Shown here piece after piece: positions 20,454-35,960 of a stretch of 43,999 nucleotides of DNA. Made by a program: the position numbers and the translations under genes. The notes under the pieces were generated by a model. The model saw only the letters and a program-made list of their open reading frames with translations, was not told the DNA's origin and did not search any database. Positions within the stretch are counted from its first letter, which is position 1, and every line of letters starts with the position of its first letter. The DNA is from Deltaproteobacteria bacterium (GTDB lineage Bacteria; Desulfobacterota; BSN033; UBA1163): NCBI GenBank assembly GCA_020059605.1, contig JAGVBT010000050.1, forward strand, positions 1 to 43,999. The letters are read 5' to 3'.

Positions 20454-21365
20454 GTGTCCCAGGAAAAGATGTCGTACCGGGAAAAGCTTTCTGGCGTCTT
20501 CGCGCCTATCGCCACCCCCTTTGACGAGGAGGGTAATCTCCTGTTAGACCAATTGGCCTCCAACATCCGGAAGCTCAACGAGAGTGGGCTTCGGGGTTAC
20601 CTCGTTCTTGGAACAAACGGGGAATTTAAGAGCCTTTTGGAAGCAGAGCGCCGGAAGGTATTGGAGACGGTCCTCAGCGTCTCAGCGAAGGATAAAGTGG
20701 TGATGGCAGGTACGGGACGGGAATCGACGTATGAATCGATCATCGCCTCCAAAGAAGCCGCTTCAATGAGAGCCGATTTTGTGAGTTTGATTGCCCCTTC
20801 CTTTTTCGCAAAAAAGATGACGGATCAAGTTCTTTTAAGACATTTTCGTTTGATTGCAGATGTATCTCCTGTTCCGGTGCTCCTCTATAATAATCCAGAA
20901 GTTGCGGTCTTGACCTTCAGCACGAGCTTGATCGGTGAGATATCAAAGCACCCGAATATCGTCGGCATGAAAGATACTTCCAAAGGAAATTTCGCCTCCT
21001 ATCTCTTGGCAGCAGGTCCTGAGTTTAACTTGTTGGCTGGATCGGCAAGTTATTTCTTTGAAGCCTTGGTCATGGGCGGTGTGGGAGGAGTGCTCTCCAT
21101 CGCGAATTTTGCTCCGGATGCCTGTTGCAAGGTATTTGACTTATGGAGAGCTGGAAAATTTGAGGAGGCCAGAACAGAGCAGTACAGGTTGATGACGTTG
21201 AATCAGAAGGTCTCTGGAAAGTTTGGAGTCGCAGGGGTAAAAGCAGCCATGGACTTTGCAGAATTCTATGGTGGCCCACCGAGGGCACCCCTGTTTCCAT
21301 TAACGATGGACGAAAAAATAAAATTGCGTGAAGAATTGACGGTTGCTGGGTTTCTGAAAGAATAA
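20454..21365 (+). CDS. Dihydrodipicolinate synthase/N-acetylneuraminate lyase (DapA/NAL) family aldolase
   Basis: 303 residues from GTG 20454 (GGAG nine bases upstream); an ATG at 20469 with AGGA is an alternative. (beta/alpha)8 class I aldolase: the substrate carboxylate loop is LGTNGEFKSL, the proton-relay tyrosine is Y145 in VLLYNNPEVAV, and the Schiff-base lysine is K173 in GMKDTSKG. The family covers DapA, NanA, 2-keto-3-deoxygluconate aldolase, KDG/KDGal dehydratases and others. Its place as first gene of a catabolic locus, behind a probable GntR operator, argues against lysine biosynthesis and for cleavage or dehydration of a 2-keto-3-deoxy acid. Substrate choice is inference. Confidence 0.92.
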   Translation: MSQEKMSYREKLSGVFAPIATPFDEEGNLLLDQLASNIRKLNESGLRGYLVLGTNGEFKSLLEAERRKVLETVLSVSAKDKVVMAGTGRESTYESIIASKEAASMRADFVSLIAPSFFAKKMTDQVLLRHFRLIADVSPVPVLLYNNPEVAVLTFSTSLIGEISKHPNIVGMKDTSKGNFASYLLAAGPEFNLLAGSASYFFEALVMGGVGGVLSIANFAPDACCKVFDLWRAGKFEEARTEQYRLMTLNQKVSGKFGVAGVKAAMDFAEFYGGPPRAPLFPLTMDEKIKLREELTVAGFLKE

Positions 21366-21409: not shown

Positions 21410-22267
21410 ATGGCAAAGAGAAAAACTTATTACCTTCATGACATGACCTATGTGGATGTTGCCGAATATCTGAAGTATTGCGATGTCGTTATGGTTTCCA
21501 TGGGCAGTCTGGAACGACACGGGGCTCACATTCCTTTAGGCTGCGATTCCCTGACAGCCTGGGAAGTGGTGATCCGAGCTTCGAAAAAAGCGTCTGTTAT
21601 TTATACCCCCATCATCCCCTATGGGTACTCTCCCCACCACATGCACAATATGGGAGAAGGGACAGGGACGATTACTCTTTCCGGTGATACCTACCGTCGG
21701 TTGGTCTATGATATTGGCAAGTCCCTGATCTACCATGGCTTCAACAAAATCGTCTACGTCACCCATCACGGCTCGAACTCAAAGGTTGTAGACGATGTCC
21801 TCCGCCGCATCCGCTACGAAACAGGGACTTTCACCTGCTGGTACAAGACCCCCACGGAACGAGAGTATAACGCCCTGAAAGGAATCATTGAAGGGCCGCC
21901 AGAAGAAACCCCGGGCTGGCATTCTGGAGAGATTGAGACATCGACCTGTTTGGCCTATGACGAGTCATGTTTGGATATGTCCCTGGCTGTTCAGGATCGA
22001 ACACACGCCCCCAAATGGATGGGACCCTCATTCTCCAAAAAGGATGGTTCCGGGATGGTGGAATTCATGGAAACGGAGCAGGCGTGGGTCCCAATGGAGC
22101 ATCAGGAGTATTCTGACACCTCTACAATTGGAAATCCATTCCGGGGGAGCAAGGAGAAGGGGCTTAAATACTTTGAGCACAGTGCCAATCATCTGGCAGC
22201 TTTTTTAGAAGAAGTGAAAAAGTTTCCAATTAAGGCTACCAATCGGGAGTTTAATAATAGAGCATAA
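21410..22267 (+). CDS. Creatininase-family hydrolase
   Basis: 285 residues; AAGGAG before the ATG. The family's metal ligands are visible: E35 and H37 in SLERHGAHIPLGCDS, D46 in the same stretch, H120 in VTHHGSNSK, and E174/E176 in GWHSGEIETS. Creatininase-family enzymes are metal-dependent amidohydrolases acting on cyclic or linear amides (creatinine, formamidopyrimidines, mycofactocin precursor) and some unusual lactam or lactone-like substrates. Location between an aldolase and a GntR regulator suggests opening of a ring or hydrolysis of an amide/lactone in the catabolic pathway. The substrate is not readable from sequence. Confidence 0.9.
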   Translation: MAKRKTYYLHDMTYVDVAEYLKYCDVVMVSMGSLERHGAHIPLGCDSLTAWEVVIRASKKASVIYTPIIPYGYSPHHMHNMGEGTGTITLSGDTYRRLVYDIGKSLIYHGFNKIVYVTHHGSNSKVVDDVLRRIRYETGTFTCWYKTPTEREYNALKGIIEGPPEETPGWHSGEIETSTCLAYDESCLDMSLAVQDRTHAPKWMGPSFSKKDGSGMVEFMETEQAWVPMEHQEYSDTSTIGNPFRGSKEKGLKYFEHSANHLAAFLEEVKKFPIKATNREFNNRA

Positions 22268-22271
22268 ATTG

Positions 22272-22440
22272 CAATGAAATCCGAAGCACGAAATCCCTGC
22301 CTGCGGCAGGCAGGCGAATTTCGAAACAAATTCAAATGACCGAACCAAAAAACACAGTAGGAAGAGATGAAAATGTTTTTGAAATTTGAATTTTGGATTT
22401 GTTTCGGATTTCGATATTCGGATTTCGGATTTTTGGGTTA
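22272..22440. repeat. TTCGAA-rich imperfect long palindrome, copy 2
   Basis: Left: GAAATCCGAAGCACGAAATC, the hairpin CCTGCCTGCGGCAGGCAGG (22296-22314), GCGAATTTCGAAACAAATTC. Right: TTTTTGAAATTTGAATTTTG, GATTTGTTTCGGATTTCG, ATATTCGGATTTCGGATTTT. It fills the space before the GntR gene and reads in frame for 17 codons into it. Confidence 0.8.
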
Positions 22441-22443
22441 AGT

Positions 22444-23172
22444 ATGCCTTTAAAACCGGTTCAAAAAATTCTGGTTTCCGATGGTGTGTTTGAGCAGATC
22501 CGGGAGATGGTCCACTCGGGGGAGTTCCCTTCCGGGGAGAGGCTTCCTTCGGAGATGAAGATGGCAGAAAACCTCTCAGTCAGCCGGAGTTCTTTAAGGG
22601 AGGCATTGAATGCCCTGGTCCATCTGGGCTATCTCTATCGCCAAAACAAAGGCCTCTATGTGACTTCAGAAACCCATTGGCGAACGAACCTATCCTTCTT
22701 TTTTTCAAGGTCTCAGGAGGAACAGAACATTGCAGAGATGATCGAAGTTCGCAAGATCATTGAAACGGAGCTTTCCGCTTTAGCGGCAAAACGGGCAGAA
22801 CCAGAGGATATCAAATCCCTGGACGAAAGCCTCCAACAAATGAAAGCCCATTGGGGTGATCCGATCGCCTTCAGCCATTCAGACCATCACTTCCATCTCT
22901 GTATTGCCAAAGCTGCCAAGAATAGCCTCCTGGGAGACTTTATTGATAAAATCCGTGATCTCCTGAGGGATAACATCACATTGATCATCCAAAAGTCGAA
23001 CATCAGCAAACGCTCATTGGACTATCATCACCGCATCTACGAAGCCATTCGGGATGGGGATGGAAATCGAGCTCGAAAAGTCATGGCTGCCCATCTCGCT
23101 GATATCGAGAAAGAATTTGTGAAGATCCTCTATCGGCCAGTGGATGCTTCTCAGAAGGAGGAACTTCGTTGA
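22444..23172 (+). CDS. FadR-subfamily GntR transcriptional regulator
   Basis: 242 residues from ATG 22444; a 17-codon upstream extension is repeat sequence and is rejected. N-terminal winged helix with FEQIREMVHSGEFPSGERLP, then SEMKMAENLSVSRSSLREAL and GLYVTSE. The C-terminal FCD domain carries likely metal/ligand-binding residues in FSHSDHHFHLCIAKAA and YHHRIYEAI. FadR-type repressors respond to small organic acids or sugar acids. The TTGTCCGACAA palindrome at 20408 fits its class. The next gene overlaps the stop codon by four bases, so regulator and dehydrogenase are cotranscribed. No strong Shine-Dalgarno is seen before the ATG. Confidence 0.9.
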   Translation: MPLKPVQKILVSDGVFEQIREMVHSGEFPSGERLPSEMKMAENLSVSRSSLREALNALVHLGYLYRQNKGLYVTSETHWRTNLSFFFSRSQEEQNIAEMIEVRKIIETELSALAAKRAEPEDIKSLDESLQQMKAHWGDPIAFSHSDHHFHLCIAKAAKNSLLGDFIDKIRDLLRDNITLIIQKSNISKRSLDYHHRIYEAIRDGDGNRARKVMAAHLADIEKEFVKILYRPVDASQKEELR

Positions 23173-24239
23173 AGATCCCTCCGAAGATGAAGGCAGCAGT
23201 GTTAATGGCTCCAAATCTCTTGGAGATAAATGAGGTGGACACTCCTCTGCCGGGTCCGGCAGATGTCCTCATCAGGGTTGAGGCCTGCGCGGTATGTAGT
23301 TCTGATCTCAGCTTGATCGCAAAGCCTTGGGTCGGACAGCCTCCTTATGGATCATTCATTCCAGGCCATGAATATTCTGGGACTGTTGTCGCCCTGGGCG
23401 AGACAGTCGATGAATTCAAAGTGGGAGACCGGGTGGCTGTGGAAGCTCATTTGGGTTGTATGCGCTGCAGAAATTGTAGGCTTGGATATTATACAGCCTG
23501 TCTGAATTACGGAAAAAAAGGACATCGCGCTAATGGGTTTACCACTGATGGAGGTTTCGCTCAGTATGTGGTCAACCACGTGAACACGGTTTATCCAATT
23601 CCGGACGCTGTCGATTTCGATGAAGCGTCTCTCATTACAAATCTGGGGTGCGTTCTTTATGGGTTTGAGACGACCGGCGGGTATGTCGTTGGCGATTATG
23701 TCGTTGTAATCGGCCCGGGTCCTCTGGGGCTCATAGCCGTAGAAGTGGCCAAAGCCCTTTGTGCCAAAAGAGCGGTCTTGGTTGGCACGAGGGCCTCCCG
23801 CCTTGAGGTGGGAAAAGATTTGGGTGCGGATCGAATCATCGATATTCATCAGGAAGATCCTCTTCGGGTTGTTCTCGAAGAGACCAGAGGAATGGGGGCT
23901 GACCTGGTAATCGAATCCTCTGGAGGAGTCGAGTCTCCCCAGATGGCCATTGCGATGGCCAAAAGAATGGGCAAGATACTTCTTCTTGGATTTCCTGAAG
24001 AACCGGTGAGCGCAGATTTTTCCATCCTGGGAAAGAATAATAAGTTCATCTACACTGTGCGAGGAGAAGGATGGGCGAATTGTGGGAGGGCAGTTTCGTT
24101 GTTGGCCTCCGGAAAGGTCAATCTGAGGCGTTTGATCACCCATTCTTTTCCCCTGGAACAGATCTCGGAAGGCTTTGAGACATTTAAGGGACGGATCGGT
24201 GGAGCCATTAAAGTGGTGGTTCACCCCCATGGAGGTTGA
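23169..24239 (+). CDS. Zinc-dependent alcohol/polyol dehydrogenase (MDR family)
   Basis: 356 residues. TTG at 23169 is chosen because AGGAGG lies seven bases before it; ATG 23187 (MKAAVL) is the alternative but has no ribosome site. Catalytic zinc ligands: Cys in EACAVCSSDL near 38 and His in GHEYSGTV. Structural zinc: CMRCRNCRLGYYTAC, the C-x2-C-x2-C-x7-C lobe. NAD-binding GPGPLGLIAVEVA. Such enzymes oxidise sorbitol, threonine, galactitol, L-gulonate and related polyols. With the GntR gene and the TRAP importer it belongs to the catabolic locus. A second member of the same family lies at 31376. Confidence 0.92.
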   Translation: MKIPPKMKAAVLMAPNLLEINEVDTPLPGPADVLIRVEACAVCSSDLSLIAKPWVGQPPYGSFIPGHEYSGTVVALGETVDEFKVGDRVAVEAHLGCMRCRNCRLGYYTACLNYGKKGHRANGFTTDGGFAQYVVNHVNTVYPIPDAVDFDEASLITNLGCVLYGFETTGGYVVGDYVVVIGPGPLGLIAVEVAKALCAKRAVLVGTRASRLEVGKDLGADRIIDIHQEDPLRVVLEETRGMGADLVIESSGGVESPQMAIAMAKRMGKILLLGFPEEPVSADFSILGKNNKFIYTVRGEGWANCGRAVSLLASGKVNLRRLITHSFPLEQISEGFETFKGRIGGAIKVVVHPHGG

Positions 24240-24355: not shown

Positions 24356-25375
24356 ATGAAAAAGAAGGGAATATGGGTATTAGTAAGTGTACTGGTGGTT
24401 TTAGGTTTGCTGATGGCGCCTAACCCGGCAACAGCTCAGCTCATCAAGCTCAAGTATCATGAAGCATTCGCACCAGCAAGTTACAATCTTCCGGTACGAT
24501 GGTGGATGGATGAGGTGGAGAAACGAACCAAAGGAGAAGTTAAGTTCGACAGGATGTTTGGTGGTGTTTTGGGGAAAATTAGTGAACAGCCAATGGCCAT
24601 AAAAGCTGGCTCGTTCGACTTAGGGCAGGTATCCGTTGTCTACAATCCAGGCCTGTATCCCATTAAATCGCTTACTATTCTGCCCTTTCTAACTGATAAT
24701 GTGTTGGCCCACGCTAAGGCCGCACACGATTTTTTTCAGTCGCCGGCGGTAGAAACACGGTTCACCGAGTTAAACCAGAAGTATTTGATGAACGGGGTGT
24801 GGATCACGATAGAGATGATGTCCCATGTCCCGGTCAGGACTATCGACGATATGAGGAAGATAAAAATCCGTGCTCACGGGGGTGCGGGTGATGCTCTAAA
24901 AGCGATAGGGATTACGACTTACGCCGTACCCTGGGGCGAGCTTCCGGCCGCTGCAGAACGGCGCGTTGTTGACGCATCCAGCATGGGCTGTCCCGTTGAC
25001 GCTTTTGACTTCGGGTTTGGAGATATATTCTCGAACTGGCAAAGGATCAAGTTCTTCTATATGCCTTATACCTTGGTCATAAACTTAGACACCTGGAAAA
25101 AGCTCCCTGTCCATGTCCAACAAGTTATGAAAGATGTAAACAATATAATGCCAACCAAGGCATACGAGATTTACCGTGAAAAGGAGTTAGAGGCAGAGAA
25201 GAAGATTATAGCAGGTGGACGGATGAAAATAGTCGAGTTTGGGGAGCTGGCAAGGCTTAAGGCAGAAGGAGGCAGGCCGGTGTGGGATAAGTGGGTTGCA
25301 GACAGGAAAGCTGAAGGTATCGACGGCCGGGCACTACTTGACGAGTTTTTAAGGCTGGTTAAAAAGTATGAATGA
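24356..25375 (+). CDS. dctP: TRAP transporter substrate-binding protein, DctP family
   Basis: 339 residues with a signal peptide (1-27, cleavage near ATAQ). DctP signatures: LKYHEAFAPASYNLPVRW, VEKRTKGEVKFDRMFGGVLG, VPVRTIDDMRKIKIRAHGG (the conserved arginine that binds carboxylates), and AVPWGELPAAAERRVVDA. It captures a carboxylated solute in the periplasm for the DctQM permease encoded next. An AGGAGG Shine-Dalgarno precedes the ATG. A strong hairpin follows two bases after the stop, which may favour more binding protein than permease. Confidence 0.93.
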   Translation: MKKKGIWVLVSVLVVLGLLMAPNPATAQLIKLKYHEAFAPASYNLPVRWWMDEVEKRTKGEVKFDRMFGGVLGKISEQPMAIKAGSFDLGQVSVVYNPGLYPIKSLTILPFLTDNVLAHAKAAHDFFQSPAVETRFTELNQKYLMNGVWITIEMMSHVPVRTIDDMRKIKIRAHGGAGDALKAIGITTYAVPWGELPAAAERRVVDASSMGCPVDAFDFGFGDIFSNWQRIKFFYMPYTLVINLDTWKKLPVHVQQVMKDVNNIMPTKAYEIYREKELEAEKKIIAGGRMKIVEFGELARLKAEGGRPVWDKWVADRKAEGIDGRALLDEFLRLVKKYE

Positions 25376-25376
25376 T

Positions 25377-25403
25377 GGAGAGGTTAACTCATATAACCTC
25401 TCC
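25377..25403 (+). promoter_or_regulatory. Intercistronic hairpin after dctP
   Basis: GGAGAGGTT (25377-25385) and AACCTCTCC (25395-25403), a perfect 9-base stem with a 9-base loop. It has no T-tract. It starts two bases after the dctP stop and is a likely 3' stabiliser. Confidence 0.65.
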
Positions 25404-25483
25404 ACGGTGGGCATGAGGTTCTTGACCAGGCGGATGAGGTTGTATGAGTTGCTTCTTGGCCAGGAACTGTGAGTCAGAATTTT

Positions 25484-25513
25484 GTTGCGGAGTGCCGTTA
25501 GGCACTTCGCAAC
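25484..25513 (+). promoter_or_regulatory. 13-base-pair hairpin before dctQ
   Basis: GTTGCGGAGTGCC (25484-25496), loop GTTA, GGCACTTCGCAAC (25501-25513); one G-U pair. It ends 30 bases before the dctQ start. No poly-T follows, so it is more likely a processing or partial-attenuation element than a full terminator. Confidence 0.65.
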
Positions 25514-25542
25514 ACCTTTAGATTGATTTCGAAGGTATGCCA

Positions 25543-26064
25543 ATGAAAAGATTGGGAAGATTCCTATTAAAGCTGCAGATAGAGGCAGAAGAGTGGCTTT
25601 CCTATATTTCGGCAGGGGCAATAGGCGTTATGATGGTCATAACTGTAGCGGATGTGGTGGCACGGCGTCTTTTCCATGGACATGTAAAGGGCTCCTACGA
25701 GTATGTTTCCCTCCTCTTTGTATATTTAATTTTTTTCGGGCTTGCCATTGCCCAACGCCGGGATGCCCACATAACCTTTGGCTTTCTGTATGACCGGCTA
25801 CCGCGAAAAGCTCGTCTCCCTATTGAGGGTGTAATCCTCACCATAAGCTTTATTCTCTTTTCTGTACTCACCTGGTACACAGCCAAATCAGCCTGGGTCA
25901 ATTTTCTGATGGGAGACACAATGTTAGGGTCCATCCAGGTTGTGACGTGGCCTTCACGGGTTGGTGTCCCGGTGGGCTGTGGTATGCTTGCTCTGCGGCT
26001 CCTGGTACAGATTGTGCGGTTAGTGAGAAGGGGAGAGTTGTATGAGGAGGCCGTTGTTAGATAA
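25543..26064 (+). CDS. dctQ: TRAP transporter small permease, DctQ family
   Basis: 173 residues from ATG 25543, chosen because GAAGG is seven bases upstream; ATG 25537 is only one base from it. Four transmembrane helices, the first near 21-45 (ISAGAIGVMMVITVADVVAR). The Q-subunit signature of a polar loop after helix 2 (IAQRRDAHITFGFLYDRLPR) is present. It forms the integral membrane complex with DctM, whose gene begins 17 bases downstream. Confidence 0.9.
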   Translation: MKRLGRFLLKLQIEAEEWLSYISAGAIGVMMVITVADVVARRLFHGHVKGSYEYVSLLFVYLIFFGLAIAQRRDAHITFGFLYDRLPRKARLPIEGVILTISFILFSVLTWYTAKSAWVNFLMGDTMLGSIQVVTWPSRVGVPVGCGMLALRLLVQIVRLVRRGELYEEAVVR

Positions 26065-26081
26065 GTGGGGGGGAAAGAGAT

Positions 26082-27386
26082 ATGAACGAGACGCTATGGG
26101 TAATTATTGGCCTGGTGATGATCGTGGTGCTGCTGGTGTTGAGGATGCCGATTGGTGTGAGCCTTCTCTTCGCTGGCACTGTCGGATTTTCCATGATACG
26201 GGGCCCCATCACAACATTAGAGACGCTCGGGAGTAGGCTCTTTGACATTGGTTCGGGTTACGAGGTGAGTGCGGTACCCCTGTTCCTGCTCATGGGGTAT
26301 TTTGCCTCGACTGCCGGGATTACCCAGGACATATACAATGCTGCCCGCGCTTGGTTTGGGCACTTAAAAGGGAGCCTTGTGCTCGCTACGACCTTTGCTG
26401 CTGCTGGATTTGGCGCCTGCTGCGGTTCCACCACGTCCTCGACCGCAGTTTTTGGTAAGGTGGCCATACCGGAGATGCTCCGCTTCAAAGTTGACCGCCG
26501 GCTTGCCGCTGGATGCATAGCAACCGTGGGAACGCTGGCGGGGATGATTCCCCCTAGCATTAACCTAATTGTATTCGGCATCCTTTCCCGACAGTCCATT
26601 CCGAAGCTCCTAATCGCCGGTTTCATCCCTGGAATGATGACTGCCTTAGCTTATGCGGTCATGATATATGTGAGGGTGAACAGAAACCCTGAATTAGCGC
26701 CGAGCCTACCCAGAGTTTCCAGGGCGGAAAAGGTCAGGTCAATTGGGGGGATATGGGGGGTGATAGTGCTGGGGGCGCTGGTCATGGGTGGCATTTTTAC
26801 TGGTATTTTCACCCCGACTGAGGCTGGTGCCATTGGGGCTGCGGGGGCTTTCGTCATAGCATTGGGACGTAAGACGCTTTCTTTACGCTCGATACGCGAT
26901 GTCCTTATAGGTACCGCCCAAACTACCTCGGTCCTCTTCATTACTCTCGTTGGGGCAATGATCTTCTCATCCTACCTGGCTATGTGCGGTAGCACTACAG
27001 CAATAGCCAATTTTCTGATTGGTCTGGATGTGCCGCCTCTCGCCACTGTCAGCGGCTATATGCTTTTGCTCATTCTCCTGGGTTGCGTCATAGACCCTAT
27101 TTCGATGATGTTCTTGACAGTGCCCATTATTGTGCCGCCTTTGCTTAAAATTGGGATTGATCCCATTTGGATTGGCATCCTGGTGGCGAAGACCCTTGAG
27201 ATCGGCGCGATTACTCCCCCCTTTGGGATAAACGCATTTATGCTTAAGAGCGTAGCACCGGAATTCTCTCTGCCTGAAATCTATAGAGGCATCTGGTGGT
27301 TCCTGCAAGTAGAATTGATTACTTTATTGCTTCTGATTTTATTCCCTGCGATATCCACATGGCTGCCCAGTATAGTGTTCAAGTAA
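26082..27386 (+). CDS. dctM: TRAP transporter large permease, DctM family
   Basis: 434 residues, about 12 transmembrane helices. DctM signatures: MPIGVSLLFAGTVGF at the start, the glycine/serine-rich loop AAAGFGACCGSTTSSTAVFG (sodium/substrate site region), GTLAGMIPPSINLIVFGI, and GAITPPFGINAFMLKSVAPE near the C-terminus. It couples sodium influx to import of the DctP-bound organic acid. It completes the TRAP operon 24356-27386. A 135-base spacer then leads to the epimerase gene. Confidence 0.94.
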   Translation: MNETLWVIIGLVMIVVLLVLRMPIGVSLLFAGTVGFSMIRGPITTLETLGSRLFDIGSGYEVSAVPLFLLMGYFASTAGITQDIYNAARAWFGHLKGSLVLATTFAAAGFGACCGSTTSSTAVFGKVAIPEMLRFKVDRRLAAGCIATVGTLAGMIPPSINLIVFGILSRQSIPKLLIAGFIPGMMTALAYAVMIYVRVNRNPELAPSLPRVSRAEKVRSIGGIWGVIVLGALVMGGIFTGIFTPTEAGAIGAAGAFVIALGRKTLSLRSIRDVLIGTAQTTSVLFITLVGAMIFSSYLAMCGSTTAIANFLIGLDVPPLATVSGYMLLLILLGCVIDPISMMFLTVPIIVPPLLKIGIDPIWIGILVAKTLEIGAITPPFGINAFMLKSVAPEFSLPEIYRGIWWFLQVELITLLLLILFPAISTWLPSIVFK

Positions 27387-27521: not shown

Positions 27522-28385
27522 ATGTTTAAATTTGGCATAAGCACATTTATCTGGTCAGAATATTTTACAGAGAAGGATCTACCCCTTATTGAGAAGGCAA
27601 AATCGTTAGGTTTTGATGCAATTGATATTGGCATTATGGATCCAGATAATTTTCCTACAGAACAGGTTAGAGATAAAGTAAAAGAGGTTGGCATTGAAGT
27701 AACAACAATTACACCGATGTCCCAAAACGCCAATTTTATTGACCCTAACCCTGAGATAAGAAAAAATGGAGTTGGATTGCTAAAAAAACTTGTAGACATT
27801 AATGTTGAAATTGGTTCCAAAATATTAGGTGGTGAAGTTTATGCGGCAAATAGTTATTTAACCGGGAAGCCTCGAACAAACAATGAATGGGAGTGGTCTG
27901 TAGCGTGCATGAGAGAAGTCGCTGTCTATGCTAAGAATAAAAGTGATTTGATTCTTGCACCGGAAGCCGTTACAAGGTTCGAAACTCATTTCCTCAACAT
28001 AGCAGAAGATGCAGTGAAATACTGCCAAGATGTAGGCACGGGCAATGTCAAAGTACACCTTGATTCCTATCACATGATTCGCGAAGAGACTAATTTTACA
28101 AGGGCAGTAGAAGTATGTGGAAGGGATTATTTAGGATATGTCCACGTATGTGAAAATAACCGGGGGATTCCGGGCACGGGGCTTGTTCCATGGAAAGAAT
28201 TCTTTACGGCACTTATAAAAATTGGTTACGAAGGCTTGCTCACCATTGAAGCATTTGACCCCAGCTTTGAGGAAATTAATAAAATGACTGCAACCTGGAG
28301 ATACTATGCTGATACGGGAGAAGAGCTGGCCATTCAAGGATTGAGAAATCTCAAAGAAATAGAAAAGAGTCTGAATTTGAAATGA
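27522..28385 (+). CDS. Sugar phosphate isomerase/epimerase family (tagatose/psicose 3-epimerase-like)
   Basis: 287 residues; AGGAGG precedes the ATG. Xylose-isomerase-like TIM barrel. Likely metal ligands and catalytic Glu: LILAPEAVTRFETHFLN (Glu), VKVHLDSYHM (Asp, His), GYVHVCENNRGIPGTGLVPW (His, Glu, Arg), and GLLTIEAFDP (second Glu). This order and spacing fit D-tagatose/D-psicose 3-epimerases and related ketose or inosose epimerases. It would interconvert a keto-sugar or keto-polyol in the cytoplasm. The gene is visibly AT-richer than those on either side of the locus. Confidence 0.88.
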   Translation: MFKFGISTFIWSEYFTEKDLPLIEKAKSLGFDAIDIGIMDPDNFPTEQVRDKVKEVGIEVTTITPMSQNANFIDPNPEIRKNGVGLLKKLVDINVEIGSKILGGEVYAANSYLTGKPRTNNEWEWSVACMREVAVYAKNKSDLILAPEAVTRFETHFLNIAEDAVKYCQDVGTGNVKVHLDSYHMIREETNFTRAVEVCGRDYLGYVHVCENNRGIPGTGLVPWKEFFTALIKIGYEGLLTIEAFDPSFEEINKMTATWRYYADTGEELAIQGLRNLKEIEKSLNLK

Positions 28386-28541
28386 AAAGTTGTCTATTGT
28401 CCACCCAGGAATGGGCAAATTCCTATCCATAAAAAATGAAAGCCGTTCATTCTCTGTGGTAATAGCGAAAACTGATCATGGGGTTCAGGGTTCAGGCCGC
28501 TGAAGGACATAATGCTAAATAGGATTGCAGGAGAAATAGAT

Positions 28542-29174
28542 ATGCTGAATAGTATTTACGATAATGTGATCAAAGGGGACTTAGAAAGCGTAAAAGAGGG
28601 TGTAACGCAAGCGCTTGCGGCGGGCCATGGCTCCAGTGATATTCTCAATACGGCGATGATTCCCGCCATGCAAGAAGTGGGTCGCCGGTTTGAAAACGAG
28701 GAATGTTATATCCCCGAGATGCTTATTTCCGCACGCGCTATGCATGGAGGCCTGGAGGTTTTAAGACCACACCTTGCTAAAGCCGATGTCGAGCCGGTGG
28801 GCAAGGTCGTTCTTGGGACAGTGAAAGGGGATCTTCACGATATAGGAAAAAACCTGGTGGGGATGTTACTGGAAGGAGCAGGTTTTGATGTGGTTGATTT
28901 GGGCGTGAATGTATCCCCGGAAAAATTTATAGAGGCGATAAGACAACATAAACCAGATTTCGTAGGGCTGAGCGCTTTGTTAACCACGACAATACCCGCT
29001 ATGCAAGCGACTATTGATGCGTTCAAGGATGTTGGTGTACGGGACCAGACGATTGTGATGGTTGGTGGCGCCCCGGTCAATCAGGCCTTTGCAGATAAGA
29101 TAGGGGCGGATATATATGCCCCAAACGCGGCATCTGCAGCAAAGAAAGCCAGAGCAATGCTAAAGAGGATCTAA
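28542..29174 (+). CDS. Corrinoid (B12-binding) protein of a methyltransferase system (MtbC/MttC/MtgC-like)
   Basis: 210 residues from ATG 28542, preferred because AGGAG lies eight bases before it; ATG 28512 adds ten residues. An N-terminal helical cap domain (residues 1-85) with HGSSDILNTAMIPAMQEVG and YIPEMLISARAM precedes the Rossmann B12-binding domain. The corrinoid motif is complete: GDLHDIGKNL, with H99 as lower cobalt ligand, SALLTTTIPAM, and MVGGAPV. It carries a methyl group between a substrate-specific methyltransferase and a methyl-tetrahydrofolate methyltransferase; both candidates are encoded directly downstream. Cytoplasmic. Confidence 0.92.
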   Translation: MLNSIYDNVIKGDLESVKEGVTQALAAGHGSSDILNTAMIPAMQEVGRRFENEECYIPEMLISARAMHGGLEVLRPHLAKADVEPVGKVVLGTVKGDLHDIGKNLVGMLLEGAGFDVVDLGVNVSPEKFIEAIRQHKPDFVGLSALLTTTIPAMQATIDAFKDVGVRDQTIVMVGGAPVNQAFADKIGADIYAPNAASAAKKARAMLKRI

Positions 29175-29286
29175 ACTAAGCCGGTATGAACGAGCATCGG
29201 ATTATCCGCCTATCCTCTATAGTATTATAAGGTGTGAGTCAGCCAAATATTTTGTATCCACAGGATGAAGGAGAAAAAAGAGAAAC

Positions 29287-30087
29287 ATGTTTTGTGTCAT
29301 TGGTGAACGGATCAATACGACTCGAAAAAGTGTGCGCGAAGCGGTTGTCAAAAGAGATGTGAATTTCATTCAGAAAGATGTAAAAAAACAGCAGGCCGCC
29401 GGTGCACATTTCATTGATGTGAATGCTGGTGCCAGAATCGGCCACGAGATGGAAGACATGAAATGGCTCATAGAGACCATTCAGCCAGTGATTGATGTTC
29501 CGCTGTGCCTGGACAGTCCGGACCCGTCTGTTCTGGAGATGGCCTATGGGATGGTGAACCAACCTCCAATGATCAATTCCATCAGTTTGGAAAAGGATCG
29601 TTTTGATACAATACTCCCCTTTTTAAAAGGAAAAAGATGTAAAATAATTTCCCTCTGCATGGATGACTCCGGCATGCCTACCGGTGCCCAGGATATCGTC
29701 GACCGAGCCAGACGGATTGTGTATGCGTTTGAAGATATGGGGATTAAGCGTGATGCTATTTATGTGGATCCTTTGGTGCAACCGGTGAGCACCGATAATG
29801 CAAAAGGGGTTATGGTCTTGGAGGCGGTAGAAGGGATTGCAAATGAACTTCCTGGTGTTCATATCACGGGCGGGCTGTCGAATATATCCTATGGATTGCC
29901 CAAACGTCCTATCATCAATCGCATCTTTCTGTGTTTAATGATGATGGCAGGGATGGATTCGGCCATTCTTGATCCTCTGGATGCAGCGACGATGGCAGCG
30001 ATCAAAACAACGGAGATGCTTCTTGGAAAGGATGATTACTGCACAAGATACCTTCAGGCGATTAGGGCTGGAGAGATTATAGCCTGA
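29287..30087 (+). CDS. Methyltetrahydrofolate:corrinoid methyltransferase (MtvA/MtgA/AcsE-like, pterin-binding fold)
   Basis: 266 residues, the size of AcsE/MtgA. Pterin-binding TIM-barrel features: MFCVIGERINTTRKSV at the N-terminus, AGAHFIDVNAG (conserved Asp-x-Asn for pterin), PLCLDSPDPSVLE, MINSISLE, and HITGGLSNISYGLPKRPIIN (conserved Asn near the pterin). In methylotrophic acetogens and related anaerobes it moves the methyl group from the corrinoid protein to tetrahydrofolate, or the reverse. GAAGGAG stands upstream, with a rather long spacing. It lies between the corrinoid gene and the UROD-type methyltransferase gene. Confidence 0.92.
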   Translation: MFCVIGERINTTRKSVREAVVKRDVNFIQKDVKKQQAAGAHFIDVNAGARIGHEMEDMKWLIETIQPVIDVPLCLDSPDPSVLEMAYGMVNQPPMINSISLEKDRFDTILPFLKGKRCKIISLCMDDSGMPTGAQDIVDRARRIVYAFEDMGIKRDAIYVDPLVQPVSTDNAKGVMVLEAVEGIANELPGVHITGGLSNISYGLPKRPIINRIFLCLMMMAGMDSAILDPLDAATMAAIKTTEMLLGKDDYCTRYLQAIRAGEIIA

Positions 30088-30150
30088 GATCACCATGGTT
30101 CGATAAGGTATTTTTTTCCTATAAATAATTCGGACGAAGGAGGTAGTCTT

Positions 30151-31293
30151 ATGACTTCACGTGAGAGAGTCCAAATGGCTTTAAATCATCAAGAAGCAGA
30201 TAGAGTGCCGATAGATTTGGGAGGATTGGCAATGTCCTCCATGTATATCGAGACTTATAAAAAAGTGCTGGATTATTTTGGCATTAGGGAAGAGATCCAA
30301 CTGGTGGATCAATTCCAACGATCAGTAAAAATATCAAAAAAAGTAAATGAGAGATTTCATGGAGATACTTGGCTTGTTTGTCCCAAATGGAAACCATGGA
30401 TAGAGGTTTCCAAAGACCACTATATAGATGAATGGGGCATTAAATATTTTGCTTCTCCGGACAGTCTTTACTGGCATATGATCGAACATCCTTTGAGCAA
30501 TGCTACCATTGAAACGCTCGATGAATATCATTGGCCCGATCCGCATGATCCCTTCAGAATGGAAGGGTTGGAAGAAGAAGTGAAAAGAATCTATGAAGAT
30601 ACGGATTATGCAATCATCTTTGGGGGATTTGGATTTAAAGGAGATTTATTTGACATGCCCTGCAGGTTACGAAGCCATACCAATTTTTATATGGATTTAT
30701 TATTAAATGAGGAATTTATAAACGCTCTTTTAGAAAAATTTGTTGATTATTGGACCTCCTTAGCTGAGGCGACATTGAAACCAATAGGAAAATATGTCAC
30801 GGCCGTATCCTTTAATGATGACATGGGTTCGCAATCCGGACCACTGATGTCCCCGGAAGTATATAGAAAACTTATTAAACCTCGACAGAGAGAGGTCTAT
30901 GCTAAGATAAGAGAATGTGCTCCACAGGCGAAGTTAGTGCTTCATTCCTGTGGGTCTGTATATAAGTTCATTCGAGATTTCATCGAAATAGGTATCGATG
31001 CTCTTAACCCCATTCAGCTTACAGCGAAAGACATGTCTGATACGGATAGGCTTAAAAAAGAATTCGGAGACAAATTGACATTTTGGGGTGGGGGCTGTGA
31101 CACCCATAAAATTCTGCCACATGGAACCGTGGCTGACATCAGAGAAGAAGTTAAAAGGAGAATAAAAGATCTTGCTCCTGGAGGCGGTTTCGTTTTTACC
31201 CCCGTACATAATATTCAACCTGATGTAAGCCCGGAAAATATTTGTGCTTTGTACGATGCAGCCTATGAGTTTGGAAACTATCCGATTGTGTAA
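30151..31293 (+). CDS. UROD-fold methyltransferase (MtaA/CmuA/MTI-like), probable substrate:corrinoid methyltransferase
   Basis: 380 residues; AGGAGG before the ATG. Its start, MTSRERVQMALNHQEADRVP, is that of the uroporphyrinogen-decarboxylase superfamily. It carries the zinc motif of the methyltransferase branch: H265-x-C267 (VLHSCGS) and C316 (GGGCDTH), the H-x-C-x(n)-C set that activates thiols or binds substrate in MtaA-type enzymes. True UROD lacks it. So it is not a haem-synthesis enzyme. Together with the corrinoid protein and the pterin methyltransferase it makes a complete methyl-transfer trio. No substrate can be named; in this locus a methoxy or N-methyl compound entering via TRAP is the best guess. 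Confidence 0.88.
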   Translation: MTSRERVQMALNHQEADRVPIDLGGLAMSSMYIETYKKVLDYFGIREEIQLVDQFQRSVKISKKVNERFHGDTWLVCPKWKPWIEVSKDHYIDEWGIKYFASPDSLYWHMIEHPLSNATIETLDEYHWPDPHDPFRMEGLEEEVKRIYEDTDYAIIFGGFGFKGDLFDMPCRLRSHTNFYMDLLLNEEFINALLEKFVDYWTSLAEATLKPIGKYVTAVSFNDDMGSQSGPLMSPEVYRKLIKPRQREVYAKIRECAPQAKLVLHSCGSVYKFIRDFIEIGIDALNPIQLTAKDMSDTDRLKKEFGDKLTFWGGGCDTHKILPHGTVADIREEVKRRIKDLAPGGGFVFTPVHNIQPDVSPENICALYDAAYEFGNYPIV

Positions 31294-31375: not shown

Positions 31376-32401
31376 ATGAAGGCTTTTTTGCTTAGAGAGT
31401 ATAACCACAAAATGTCTTTGGAGGAGAGAGAAGACCCTGTGCCCGGCCCTACAGAGATCATCCTCCGTGTCAGGGCCTGCGGTGTCTGCGGAACTGATCT
31501 TAAGATTATTTCAGGGAAAATTCCTCCGTCCATTGTCACCCTTCCCCATACACCAGGTCACGAAATAGCGGGTGAGGTGGTGGCTATTGGTTCTGCGGTG
31601 ACCGATGTGAAGATCGGCCAGAGAGGGATCGTCTATTTTTATATCGCATGCAAAGACTGCGAGATGTGCAGGACAGGAAAGGAAAATGTATGCTTTTCCA
31701 TTAAACGCTTGGGGTTTGAACTTCCGGGAGGCTTTTCCGAATTGGTGAGACTGCCTGCCTATAATTTCTGTCCCTTTGACGAAGAGAAACCGCTCACTGA
31801 GATGGCGGTTCTTCCTGATGCCGTGGCCACTTCTTATCACGCCCTTAAAACAATGGCGGACGTCAAAGCGGGTCAGGATGTAATGATCATGGGTATAGGG
31901 GGGTTGGGGATTCATGCCATTCAAATTGCAAAACTGATGGGAGCGAGAGTCTTTGCCGTGGCGAGAAGAGAAGAGCCTCTCCAATTGGCCACCGAGCAGG
32001 GTGCAGATTTTGTGATCAACTCCTCCGAAGAAAGTTCATCGAAAAAGGTGATGGAGCTCACGAAGGGAAGAGGAGTGGATGTGGTGATTGAGAATGTAGG
32101 TTCAGCTCAATCCATGAGTTGGAGTCTTCCCTGTCTCAAGAGGAGAGGGCGTCTTGTCATCGTCGGCTACGATCCTTTGAATCCCTATCCCCTCAATCCG
32201 ATGGAAATGCACTATAACGAATGGATTCTCTGCGGGTCTCGGGTTTCCACCAAGCAGGAGCTTCTCGAGGTCATTGATCTCGTTGAGAGAGGAAGGATCA
32301 AGCCCATCGTTTACAAACTCCTACCCTGGGAAAAGGCAAATGAAGCCATTGATGAACTTAAGAGTAGGAGGGGAATTGGTAGAACAGTGCTGACGTTCTA
32401 A
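31376..32401 (+). CDS. Zinc-dependent alcohol dehydrogenase (MDR family), second copy
   Basis: 341 residues; GGGGGG-rich ribosome site before ATG 31376. Catalytic zinc: Cys in RACGVCGTDLKII near 38, His in TPGHEIAGEV near 60. Structural zinc lobe CKDCEMCRTGKENVC. NAD(P)-binding GIGGLGIHAIQIAKLMGAR. C-terminal VYKLLPWEKANEAIDELKS is typical. It differs clearly from the 23169 gene, so the two probably oxidise different intermediates. A terminator-like element follows. Confidence 0.91.
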   Translation: MKAFLLREYNHKMSLEEREDPVPGPTEIILRVRACGVCGTDLKIISGKIPPSIVTLPHTPGHEIAGEVVAIGSAVTDVKIGQRGIVYFYIACKDCEMCRTGKENVCFSIKRLGFELPGGFSELVRLPAYNFCPFDEEKPLTEMAVLPDAVATSYHALKTMADVKAGQDVMIMGIGGLGIHAIQIAKLMGARVFAVARREEPLQLATEQGADFVINSSEESSSKKVMELTKGRGVDVVIENVGSAQSMSWSLPCLKRRGRLVIVGYDPLNPYPLNPMEMHYNEWILCGSRVSTKQELLEVIDLVERGRIKPIVYKLLPWEKANEAIDELKSRRGIGRTVLTF

Positions 32402-32500: not shown

Positions 32501-32517
32501 CTTTCTAATGGCCATTG

Positions 32518-33747
32518 ATGAAAAGAACAGTCTTATTAATTGTTACCTTTGATACCAAGGAAGAAGAAGCCCTCTTTCTTAAAAAATGTATCGAAGCGCG
32601 AGGGATTCGTGTCTTGACCATGGACACCGGAATACTCGCTCCACCTCACGTGAAGGTGGATATCGATCAAGAAGAAGTTGCCCGTCGCGGAGGGGTTTCG
32701 CTGAAAGAGATTGTGGCCACAGGTGACAAAGGAGAATGCATTTTGAATATGGTTCGAGGAGCCAAGGTCATCTGTAGGGAACTTTTTGATCAGGGTCGTT
32801 TCCAAGGGGTTGTCTGCATTGGAGGTGCTCAGGGGACAGACATCGGTTGTGCTGCCATGCGCTCCCTTCCCATCGGTGTCCCCAGACTCATGGTTTCTAC
32901 TGTTGCCTCGGGTCGGGCCACCTTTGGTCCTTATGTGGGAACGAAGGACGTCACGATGATGCACTCTGTTACGGATCTCCAGGGATTAAATTTCTTGACC
33001 AAACGAGTCCTTCAGAATGCAGCAGGTGCTGTTTGTGGAATGGTAGAGGCTATCGGGGAAAAATTGATGAAACCGGAAGGGATTCCTGTGGCCATGTCGA
33101 TGTTAGGGACCACAACACCAGGGGCTTTGCGTTGCAAAAGGATTCTGGAGCGTCAAGGTTTTGAGGTAGTCACTTTTCACCAGAATGGGACAGGTGGAAT
33201 TGCCATGGAGGACATGATTCGGGAAGGGGCTTTTAAAGGGGTATTGGATCTGAATCTCCACGAGATTGGAGATCGGTTTGTGGCAGGACTTCATGGGGCA
33301 ATCCGGGAAGATCGTCTCGAAGCGGCCGGGGATTTGGGAATCCCCCAAGTCGTGGCACCCGGAAGCATCAATTATGTGGTCTTGGGGCCGCTGGATCATC
33401 TTCCGCCGGATTGGAGATCGAGAAAACTGATTGTCCATAATCCCAATCTCACGCTGGTCAGGTTGAGCCCTGATGAACTTCATAGTGTAGGAAAACTTGT
33501 AGCAGAAAAATTGAATCGGGCAAAGGGGCCGACCCGGTTATTTATCCCCCTTAAAGGATTTTCCTACCCGGATAGAGAGAACTTGCCACACTGGGAACCA
33601 GAGGGGAACCAGGCGTTCATCGATTCCTTAAAGGCCAATTTAAAACCGTCGATACCCATAACGGAACTGGATGCCCACATCAACGATCCGGAATTTATCG
33701 ATCCGGTGACCGAAGCCTTTTTGTCGATGATGAAGGATAAAAAGTAA
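32518..33747 (+). CDS. UPF0261 family protein (Tm-1-like ATP-binding domain)
   Basis: 409 residues from ATG 32518 (a TTG three bases earlier is also possible). The sequence matches UPF0261/Tm-1-like proteins: TVLLIVTFDTKEEEALFLKK at the N-terminus, VVCIGGAQGTDIGCAAMRS, PRLMVSTVASGRATFGPYVG, and a C-terminal LNLHEIGDRFVAG and VVAPGSINYVVLG. The plant homologue Tm-1 binds ATP and blocks tobamovirus replication; the bacterial function is unknown. In bacteria the gene often sits with sugar or organic-acid catabolism genes. No Shine-Dalgarno is present, and the gene starts 18 bases after the T-tract of the preceding element. It sits within the catabolic locus. Confidence 0.9.
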   Translation: MKRTVLLIVTFDTKEEEALFLKKCIEARGIRVLTMDTGILAPPHVKVDIDQEEVARRGGVSLKEIVATGDKGECILNMVRGAKVICRELFDQGRFQGVVCIGGAQGTDIGCAAMRSLPIGVPRLMVSTVASGRATFGPYVGTKDVTMMHSVTDLQGLNFLTKRVLQNAAGAVCGMVEAIGEKLMKPEGIPVAMSMLGTTTPGALRCKRILERQGFEVVTFHQNGTGGIAMEDMIREGAFKGVLDLNLHEIGDRFVAGLHGAIREDRLEAAGDLGIPQVVAPGSINYVVLGPLDHLPPDWRSRKLIVHNPNLTLVRLSPDELHSVGKLVAEKLNRAKGPTRLFIPLKGFSYPDRENLPHWEPEGNQAFIDSLKANLKPSIPITELDAHINDPEFIDPVTEAFLSMMKDKK

Positions 33748-33753
33748 ACATTC

Positions 33754-33838
33754 ATCCCCTCACCCCCTCCCTCTCCCCCAAGAGACTGTGTCGTATTGGC
33801 AAGCAAAGGGGGAGAGGGGAAGGGTGAGGGGGAGGAGA
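33754..33838. repeat. CCCTCACCC-family palindrome, copy 4, carrying the SDR Shine-Dalgarno
   Basis: CCCCTCACCCCCTCCCTCTCCCC on the left; GGGGGAGAGGGGAAGGGTGAGGGGGAGGAG on the right in overlapping runs, with a 25-base middle (AGAGACTGTGTCGTATTGGC). The right arm's GGAGGAG stands six to eight bases before the ATG at 33844. Confidence 0.85.
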
Positions 33839-33843
33839 ATCTC

Positions 33844-34617
33844 ATGTGTAAACGTCTTCTTGATAAAAACGCCATTGTTACAGGGGCTGCCCGGGGCATG
33901 GGCTTTGTCATTGCCCAGGCATTATATGAAGAGGGAGCAAGGGTGGCCATTCTTGACATTGACGAAAAGGGCGTCGCTGAGGCCGCCCAGCAACTGGATA
34001 GCAAGCATCACAGGGTCATCGGCAGGAGAGTGGACGTGACGAATAAGACTGAGATCAACGATCTGGTCAAAGAGGTCAAGGGGTTTTGGGAAAGTGTCGA
34101 CATCCTGGTTAATAATGCCGGTGGTGCCCTGAATACGCCTTACATTCTCGAGAAAATTGGAGAGAAGGACTGGAATCTTGTTGTCGATGTCAACCTGAAG
34201 GGGACCTTTCTTTGCTGCCAAGCAGTCATTCCAGAGATGGTGAAGCAGGGCAGTGGTGTCATTGTCAACATCTCTGCCTTGGCAGGTCACTGGAGGGCTT
34301 CTCTTGCAGGTGTGCAATATACTGCAGCAAAGGCAGGTGTCGAAGGGTTGACCCGACAGTTTGCCTATGATTGGGGAAAGCACGGAATCAGGGTGAACGC
34401 AGTGGCCCCCACCGTGACCCTGACCGGGGAAAGGGTTCAAGGCCTCTGGGAGGGAAAGAGTGAGGAAGAGAAGAGAAAGGTTCTCTCCGCTATTCCCTTG
34501 GGTCGGCTTGGGACCCCAGAGGAAGTAGCATCTGTAGTTGTGTTCTTGGCCTCGAATGAGTCGAGTTATATTACAGGGATCACGATTGATGTCAACGGAG
34601 GGCGTTATCTCCGATAG
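33844..34617 (+). CDS. Short-chain dehydrogenase/reductase (SDR)
   Basis: 257 residues from ATG 33844; the earlier TTG in-frame start reads through repeat sequence and is rejected. Classical SDR: cofactor loop VTGAARGMGFVIA, D at the end of strand 2 (AILDID, favouring NAD), NNAGG, catalytic S144 (VNISALAGHW) and Y159-x3-K163 (YTAAKAG). C-terminal GITIDVNGGRYLR. It oxidises or reduces a hydroxyl group of a sugar or hydroxy acid. The gene belongs to the one-directional catabolic locus, between UPF0261 and the transaldolase-like gene. Confidence 0.92.
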   Translation: MCKRLLDKNAIVTGAARGMGFVIAQALYEEGARVAILDIDEKGVAEAAQQLDSKHHRVIGRRVDVTNKTEINDLVKEVKGFWESVDILVNNAGGALNTPYILEKIGEKDWNLVVDVNLKGTFLCCQAVIPEMVKQGSGVIVNISALAGHWRASLAGVQYTAAKAGVEGLTRQFAYDWGKHGIRVNAVAPTVTLTGERVQGLWEGKSEEEKRKVLSAIPLGRLGTPEEVASVVVFLASNESSYITGITIDVNGGRYLR

Positions 34618-34763: not shown

Positions 34764-35960
34764 ATGGCATCAAAAAGTATAGTAGAAGGACTATGGGAAG
34801 TGAATCCGGAAGCGGAGATCTGGTGGGATTCTTCACCGATCATTTACGACAACTGGCGTGCCAAAATGATCGAAAGAGCAGCCAATAAGGGAGAGATGAA
34901 GAACTGGCTTGACCGCCTGTATCATAAAGACAATTCTCCTGAAAAGAATATTTTCCGCGGGGTCACGACAAACCCTCCCCTCTCTTATAATGCCATCAAG
35001 GATAACCCGGATTACTGGACCCAGTGGGTGGATCAACTTATTGCAAAGGATCGCTGCAAGGATTCGGAGGTCGTCTTCTGGGAAACCTACAAGGAGATTG
35101 TGAAGAGAGGAGCAGAGGTATACCGACCGATTTTTGAGGCCAGCCATTACAAACATGGATATATCTCAGGACAGGTGGATCCCCGGATCCGGGACGATGT
35201 GAAGAAGATGGTTTCTCAGGGAATAGAGTTGCACTCCCTTTCACCCAATGTCATGATTAAGGTTCCTGGCACAGCCGAGGGATACGAGGTGATCAGGCAG
35301 CTCACCGCGAGAGGGATTGCGACGAATAACACACTGGCATTCATCATCCCTCAGTTCATCGCCTGCATGAATGCGGTAGTTGCTGGAATAAAGGAAGCCA
35401 AGGCCAAGGGTGTCGATCTATCCCGGTGGCGGTCGGTCATCACGGCGATGAGTGCCCGTTACGGGACGTTGGGTGATTTGCAGAAAGAGGCGATGGAACG
35501 GAATATTGAACTCAGCGAGGCAGAGATCCGCTGGGCCGAAATTGCCATTTTCAAAAAGGCGTGCCTTTTGGTAAAGGAAAACCACGATTATCCAGGGAAG
35601 ATGCTTCTCTGTTCCATGCGGATGAGTCCCCAGATAAACGGGGAGATTCGTTCATGGCATATCGAGATGATCGCAGGGGCAAACATCGTCTATACCTGTG
35701 CGCCCCCCTACCTCGAAGGCCTTCTTGAAAAGGGTCAGCATCTTGAATTCCGGGATCAGGTTGAGGAGCCCGTGCCGCAGGAGGTTATGGAAAAATTGAT
35801 GAAGATTCCTTATTTCAGAAGGGGCTATGCCGAGGATGGGTACACTCATGATGAATTCAACATACATCCTGCATTGGTGGCAACGGCCAAGGAATTTTCA
35901 GGAGCCACACAATCCATGGTCGATTTTGTGTCGAAACGGGTGGCCAAATACTGTGGATGA
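34764..35960 (+). CDS. Transaldolase-family protein
   Basis: 398 residues; AAGGAG before the ATG. Transaldolase motifs: N-terminal FRGVTTNPPLSYNAI, with the T-N-P loop, then SGQVDPRIR, and the Schiff-base lysine K166 in NVMIKVPGT, followed by EGYEVIRQLTARGIATNNT (typical of the TAL fold). C-terminal RMSPQINGEIRSWHIEMIAG. It is longer than the usual 215-320-residue enzymes and resembles the 370-400-residue branch. Its reaction (dihydroxyacetone transfer or aldol cleavage) would feed sugar phosphates into central metabolism. A terminator follows 23 bases after the stop. Confidence 0.88.
   Translation: MASKSIVEGLWEVNPEAEIWWDSSPIIYDNWRAKMIERAANKGEMKNWLDRLYHKDNSPEKNIFRGVTTNPPLSYNAIKDNPDYWTQWVDQLIAKDRCKDSEVVFWETYKEIVKRGAEVYRPIFEASHYKHGYISGQVDPRIRDDVKKMVSQGIELHSLSPNVMIKVPGTAEGYEVIRQLTARGIATNNTLAFIIPQFIACMNAVVAGIKEAKAKGVDLSRWRSVITAMSARYGTLGDLQKEAMERNIELSEAEIRWAEIAIFKKACLLVKENHDYPGKMLLCSMRMSPQINGEIRSWHIEMIAGANIVYTCAPPYLEGLLEKGQHLEFRDQVEEPVPQEVMEKLMKIPYFRRGYAEDGYTHDEFNIHPALVATAKEFSGATQSMVDFVSKRVAKYCG

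Follow-up and report, generated by a model that had tools for sequence, protein, structure and literature searches.

A cluster of three adjacent genes in a deltaproteobacterium (assembly GCA_020059605.1) encodes what is probably a corrinoid-dependent methyl-transfer system, one that may act on a methylated carbohydrate. The cluster occupies positions 28542-31293 of contig JAGVBT010000050.1, contig C44 in a draft genome of 4.38 Mb; the whole 43,999-nucleotide stretch that was analyzed is called the window here. The genes specify a corrinoid carrier protein, a pterin-binding methyltransferase, and a protein with the uroporphyrinogen decarboxylase (UROD) fold. We lean, with modest confidence, toward the view that this trio would remove, by way of its corrinoid carrier, the methyl group of an O-methylated sugar acid or polyol and deliver it to folate. 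Considered separately, the methyl-transfer role is well supported, and the carbohydrate substrate is plausible. A first-pass annotation had described a methyl-transfer trio in a sugar or organic acid catabolic setting. The gene families and the neighboring genes bear out that observation, and the interpretation placed on it is partly supported.

The proposed pathway would begin with import of the O-methylated sugar acid or polyol by a tripartite ATP-independent periplasmic (TRAP) transporter. The UROD-fold enzyme would activate the methyl ether and pass its methyl group to cob(I)alamin on the carrier, and the pterin-binding enzyme would transfer that methyl group to tetrahydrofolate. Methyl-tetrahydrofolate would then feed the Wood–Ljungdahl route, while a RACo protein would re-reduce the carrier. 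The demethylated product would be oxidized by two zinc dehydrogenases and a short-chain dehydrogenase (SDR), and subsequently epimerized, opened, and cleaved by an epimerase, a creatininase-like hydrolase, a dihydrodipicolinate synthase (DHDPS)-like aldolase, and a transaldolase. As a guess, 4-O-methyl-glucuronate or an oxidized form of it would fit a carboxylate importer. We favor this pathway because of the protein families and their cut-offs, the activator and Wood–Ljungdahl genes elsewhere in the genome, the separate clade formed by the UROD-fold protein, the corrinoid operons in which some clade members lie, the distribution and phylogeny of carriers in other genomes, and a shared gene order in a spirochaete.

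All three genes lie on the + strand at the positions first annotated, and their Pfam families agree with the assigned roles. The carrier (28542-29174; B12-binding and B12-binding_2, PF02310 and PF02607) contains GDLHDIG, the D-x-H-x-x-G signature required of a B12-binding carrier. Of its two candidate starts, 28512 (where the open reading frame begins, 220 aa) and 28542 (210 aa), the latter has the more convincing ribosome site, GCAGGAG; the histidine is H99 counted from 28542, as originally numbered, and H109 in the longer frame. The top NCBIfam model for the carrier is glycine-betaine MtgC (212.3 bits, below the cut-off of 370), and its second-best solved relative is a trimethylamine carrier. 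The second protein (29287-30087; Pterin_bind) is a predicted methyl-corrinoid:tetrahydrofolate methyltransferase (MT2). It scores 332.2 bits with PRK07535, above the curated cut-off of 259, and its best solved relative is 4o0q (E 6e-61). The third (30151-31293; URO-D) is the predicted donor methyltransferase (MT1). For this protein, TIGR01463 (MtaA/CmuA) is the best NCBIfam match at 55.1 bits, short of the cut-off of 235.4.

The first-pass annotation saw no corrinoid reductive activator in the window. This holds for the window contig, which has no RACo domain, and fails for the genome: contigs C56 and C89 each encode a RACo-type activator (PF14574, 341 and 320 bits). Thus, the activator is missing from the window only. 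In addition, contig C18 carries two genes of the CdhC/AcsB family (carbon monoxide dehydrogenase/acetyl-CoA synthase), and a profile search of the genome yields 28 B12-binding matches. The genome has six URO-D matches: the window protein, two on C41, one on C5 that is HemE-like by score and tree place, and two on C89 that both exceed the TIGR01463 cut-off (237.5 and 256.2 bits vs 235.4).

The UROD-fold protein belongs to a large branch of its family in which we found no characterized member. At least 7,565 homologs score at E 1e-3 among 7,998 candidates, and the 120 matches listed are 43-88% identical and mostly full length. In a quick tree, from which duplicate rows of the same loci are omitted, the protein falls within a 90-row clade (Shimodaira–Hasegawa-like approximate likelihood ratio test, SH-aLRT, 95). 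A careful 41-row tree separates a 30-row clade containing it from the MtaA/CmuA-type, MtvB-like, and HemE rows with support of 100/99. Among these references, the four MtvB-like rows owe their name to synteny and size in Moorella and not to an assay, the CmuA row is named by its record, and the C89 rows are named by NCBIfam. Thus, the comparison with known methyltransferases that the first-pass annotation had suggested places the protein with neither the MtvB-like nor the MtaA/CmuA-type rows, OdmB and MtbA sequences being absent from the set.

An alignment of 105 proteins (90 clade rows and 15 others) defines the clade's motif. H265 is present in 90/90 clade rows, C267 in 84/90, H353 in 89/90, and all three in 84/90. 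The zinc motif had been annotated as H265-x-C267 with C316. Those residues exist; C316, however, is not the homolog of the third zinc cysteine, which falls in column 353. Specifically, column 353 is Cys in 6/6 MtaA/CmuA-type rows, CmuA included, and His in all but one of the clade rows, whereas column 316 in the clade is Cys in 35/90, Ile in 35/90, and Val in 16/90, and is Cys in 0/15 of the other rows. From these patterns we infer that the protein would bind zinc through H265 and C267; the third ligand is unsure, perhaps H353. Other polar positions conserved in the clade (D224 and Q289, 90/90 each; D317, 83/90; D223, 82/90; Q356, 81/90), together with H353, would suit a hydroxylated ligand.

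Some clade members reside in corrinoid operons. In a Methylomirabilota metagenome-assembled genome (MAG), locus L045 (1145-6978) presents, in order, RACo, a carrier (51%), the clade UROD (40%), a second UROD, and a homocysteine S-methyltransferase; this operon apparently sends methyl groups to methionine. Locus L098 presents a ribose-type sugar ATP-binding cassette importer, an MtaA-like protein (201 bits against a cut-off of 235), the clade UROD (38%), and a carrier (54%), followed by a pterin enzyme fragment where the contig stops. L098 lies on contig C22 of a Methanosuratincola MAG that also has a clade UROD on contig C12 (L297). We considered, and rejected, a sugar-using methanogen as the explanation. 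The tetranucleotide comparison gives 0.81 for C12 with C22, 0.30-0.65 for these two with six other sampled contigs, and 0.62-0.93 for those six with one another; thus, C12 and C22 probably stem from a bacterium and were assigned to the archaeal MAG by mis-binning. At another locus, L035, a carrier homolog lies beside a second UROD.

More often, a candidate carrier is encoded elsewhere in the genome. We hand-picked 24 genomes, mostly from phyla other than acetogens, from loci whose clade UROD has no carrier nearby. A small carrier protein is present in 21 of them, with best matches of 41-56%. A match was counted if its open frame was 201-299 aa and not of MetH length, with two exceptions: G431 (476 aa) and G415 (one internal stop). 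Within the phylum of the window itself, carriers at about 50% identity are so widespread that we abandoned carrier presence as an indicator of the clade there; the phylum of genome G414 (locus L062, titled Thermoguttaceae) therefore served as the control. Across 149 genomes of this phylum, the Planctomycetota, a small carrier accompanies the UROD in 21/23 genomes and occurs in 18/126 others (Fisher p 6e-13, a value not to be taken literally because the sampled genomes are related). Without the three lead genomes, the comparison is 19/20 vs 18/126. These counts were read by hand among the matches listed (E cut 1.6e-28), and no genome contributed more than 8 scored candidates; frames below 480 aa were accepted, and a 105-aa piece in G549 was omitted (22/23 if included). 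The URODs counted in this comparison are sequence matches of 26-60% identity, taken independently of any tree.

A tree of 52 carriers puts the window protein in a 14-row set (SH-aLRT 98) with 9/20 of the carriers encoded in trans, 2/7 of those encoded in cis, and two from its phylum. The set is apart from five other carriers of the window's own genome and from three MtvC-like carriers. Neighbors of the trans carriers include methylenetetrahydrofolate reductase with a pterin enzyme (G413, G416), RACo genes (G418, G415, G423, G432), MtaB (G422), MTTB (G432), and UROD relatives of 25-32% (G422, G424, G415). The presence of such donor enzymes means that some of these carriers may serve other donors. 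In G424, locus L251 has a stand-alone carrier between genes for a GH127 arabinofuranosidase and a homocysteine S-methyltransferase. We advance the following generalization tentatively, and with less confidence than the proposal for the window itself: the H-x-C...H clade could form a large and so far undescribed group of corrinoid methyltransferases. Its members would demethylate sugars, sugar acids, or polyols that carry O-methyl groups, in saccharolytic bacteria of many phyla, often with one shared stand-alone carrier in trans, and would feed folate or methionine.

The carbohydrate half of the proposal derives from the surrounding genes, all of which run on the + strand. As first annotated, TRAP genes (24356-27386) and a ketose-3-epimerase-like gene lie immediately upstream of the trio. 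The TRAP genes encode the solute-binding protein DctP (24356-25375; profile scans and relatives) and small and large membrane subunits identified as DctQ (25537-26064) and DctM (26082-27386) by place and size. The epimerase-like TIM barrel (27522-28385; PF01261) has D-tagatose 3-epimerases as its best solved relatives. Farther upstream are a DHDPS-family aldolase/lyase (20454-21365; PF00701), a creatininase-family hydrolase (21410-22267) with 120 relatives of 62-91% identity among the matches listed, a GntR/FCD regulator (22393-23172; Pfam), and a zinc alcohol dehydrogenase, adh1 (23169-24239; Tdh/IolM-like, under both cut-offs). Downstream come a second zinc alcohol dehydrogenase, adh2 (31376-32401; Pfam), a UPF0261 (Tm-1-like) protein (32515-33747; Pfam), an SDR (33796-34617; profile scans), and a transaldolase-family protein (34764-35960; PF00923; closest relative 80%, in G304). 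The nearest relative of the window UROD in a named genome (75%, Spirochaetes, locus L021) likewise comes after an adh2 homolog (53%) and the last part of an adh1-like gene.

Part of this neighborhood, the creatininase-like, UPF0261, and zinc dehydrogenase genes (window 21410-24239 and 32515-34617), recurs elsewhere as a module, partly with an SDR and a hydroxyacid dehydrogenase. It is found in a spirochaete, in Moorella, and in the window's phylum (L283, L284, L285, L282, L280/L281), and the importers differ. Specifically, G304 has the creatininase gene twice, with adh1 (67%), UPF0261 (65%), adh2 (52%), DHDPS (48%), and transaldolase (80%); the spirochaete G400 (contig C118) has a hydroxyacid dehydrogenase (50%), SDR (68%), UPF0261 (61%), adh1 (60%), and creatininase (65%); G017, of the same class as the window genome, has creatininase (65%), UPF0261 (43%), and adh1 (53%); and Moorella G401 and G402 have creatininase (60%), UPF0261 (40%), and adh1 (51%), G401 with a class II aldolase, a TIM-barrel isomerase, and a TctA/TctC importer as well. 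The module likely breaks down some oxidized sugar or polyol, and the trio looks like a first step added to it for a methylated form. Among the best literature matches, judged by title and abstract, nothing addressed the role of the creatininase/IolN-like and UPF0261 neighbors. The Thermotoga-type inositol route offers the closest models: adh1, the creatininase-like protein, and the epimerase match IolM (213.6 bits; cut-off 450), IolN (73.6; 245), and IolO (120.3; 300), all below the equivalog cut-offs.

Several observations weigh against the demethylase proposal. In a survey of 80 clade loci from named genomes, of which 56 have 2 kb on both sides and 24 are cut short, the best UROD has a carrier homolog no more than 2 kb away in five (L027, L045, L049, L086, L098); the other 75 lead us to reject the notion that the trio is conserved in most relatives. 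Three of the 24 hand-picked genomes (G410, G421, G430) lack a close carrier. Together with the scarcity of adjacent carriers, this suggests that a corrinoid-free role is possible for some clade members. Moreover, the group of the window carrier excludes 11/20 trans and 5/7 cis carriers. The 9-kb spirochaete contig L021 shows no carrier or pterin gene. The sugar module occurs without the trio in the stretches from all five genomes, G304, G400, G017, G401, and G402; thus, the module is not tied to methylated substrates. Neighbors of clade genes are varied, no sugar family appearing more than 3 times among the 25 of 152 families shown (the count covers 115 of 259 operon-like first neighbors selected by a simple rule and includes spurious open reading frames). 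C267 is absent from 6/90 clade rows, and in the HemE row, which does not represent a methyltransferase, columns 265 and 353 are likewise His, so H353 may be an heirloom of the fold and not a zinc ligand. Finally, the genes do not overlap and are 63-135 bp apart, the gaps from dctM to adh2 being 135, 126 (to 28512), 112, 63, and 82 bp.

These points bear on the alternatives. An unlikely one is that the methyl donor is no ether but an N-methyl or other compound, for instance a creatinine-like, betaine-like, or methyl-sulfur one. The MtgC and trimethylamine likenesses of the carrier fit such a donor, and a cyclic amide would be the donor suggested by the creatininase-family gene. The carrier nevertheless stays well below the MtgC cut-off, no MTTB-family donor enzyme matched among the window genes scanned, and the creatininase model (75 bits; cut-off 235) fits its gene no better than IolN (74; 245). 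Furthermore, the creatininase relatives of 60-65% in Moorella, G400, and G017 are accompanied by UPF0261 and adh1 homologs, and in Moorella G401 also by a TctA/TctC importer. The MttB-type betaine and methylamine systems are comparable to the trio in carrier and pterin enzyme, and differ from it in the donor enzyme.

It is also improbable that the UROD-fold protein is a different sugar-acid enzyme, for example a decarboxylase or lyase, with the carrier and pterin genes serving another donor enzyme. The loci lacking an adjacent carrier, the three genomes lacking a close one, the clade rows without C267, and the H353 shared with HemE all agree with that alternative. Set against it are the near-constant H265 and C267, the cis operons at L045, L086, and L098, and the co-occurrence of the clade UROD with a small carrier protein.

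We regard an aromatic methyl-ether O-demethylase of the MtvB/OdmB/MtoB type as very unlikely. The three-part layout does match known aromatic systems (PMC8630106, PMC13222342, in their available portions). Specifically, the Mtv, Odm, Vdm, and Mto enzymes described in the available part of PMC8630106 combine a UROD-fold MT1, a small carrier, a pterin MT2, and a RACo-type activator, and their methyl group ends on a pterin, as proposed here. The MtvB-like rows, however, lie on another branch, 4/4 lack H-x-C, and three are 434-475 aa while the fourth is 390 aa; we therefore reject membership in that group. The Mto operon, as far as that source describes it, has major facilitator superfamily and efflux genes, whereas the window has TRAP genes and the sugar module. 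The genome also harbors a separate MtvB-like gene on contig C41 (L166, 9475-15122), with a carrier, a 301-aa second UROD, a pterin enzyme, and an AMP-binding ligase. This cluster is probably an aromatic O-demethylase distinct from the window trio, so an aromatic-type system may exist separately in the genome. The CdmBCA chloromethane system is likewise an MT1-carrier-MT2 trio of the UroD superfamily; CdmB is reported to be zinc-free and nearest MtoB (PMC13222342). CdmB scores 16 bits against our clade profile. The least probable alternative by our estimate, an MtaA/CmuA-like MT2 or chloromethane enzyme, shares the UROD fold of MtaA, MtbA, CmuA, and Mlp, the H-x-C of the MtaA/CmuA-type rows, and TIGR01463 as best model, and we reject it given the score far below that model's cut-off, the His in place of the third Cys, the separate clade, and the MT2 already present at 29287.

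Polymers of plants and algae commonly contain O-methyl sugars. If the proposal is correct, it would define an anaerobic route for the methyl groups of O-methyl carbohydrates, and the clade would be an oxygen-free counterpart to oxidative sugar O-demethylation. Such a route would give some phyla that are rarely regarded as methyl users a further supply of methyl groups for acetogenesis and methionine. Handling of methylated carbohydrates by the clade would also explain the common annotation "uroporphyrinogen decarboxylase family." We consider the uncharacterized clade to be of greater importance than the window itself. In the available portions of four sources (PMC10418091, PMC8630106, PMC13222342, PMC10989822), corrinoid demethylases are assigned to aromatic ethers, haloalkanes, amines, methanol, or thiols; UROD-superfamily methyltransferases act on aromatic ethers, chloromethane, and methyl-sulfur or methyl-selenide compounds; and Bathyarchaeia use a non-UROD aromatic enzyme. 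One of them notes that uncharacterized clades exist within the UROD superfamily (PMC13222342). Among the best matches of our literature search, judged by title and the start of the abstract and with most subscription journals outside its scope, no paper concerned corrinoid demethylation of carbohydrates or this clade.

Promoter and terminator scans gave results at chance level. The G+C content is 43.9% over 28512-31293 and 48.6% for the window, a hint that would fit later acquisition of the trio. Between the TRAP genes dctP and dctQ, a 14-pair inverted repeat at 25483-25514 precedes a short T-rich stretch and could be an attenuator favoring the binding protein. Finally, positions 11953-15138 encode a 1061-aa protein with a BTAD activator domain, tetratricopeptide repeats, and weak AAA/NACHT-like matches.

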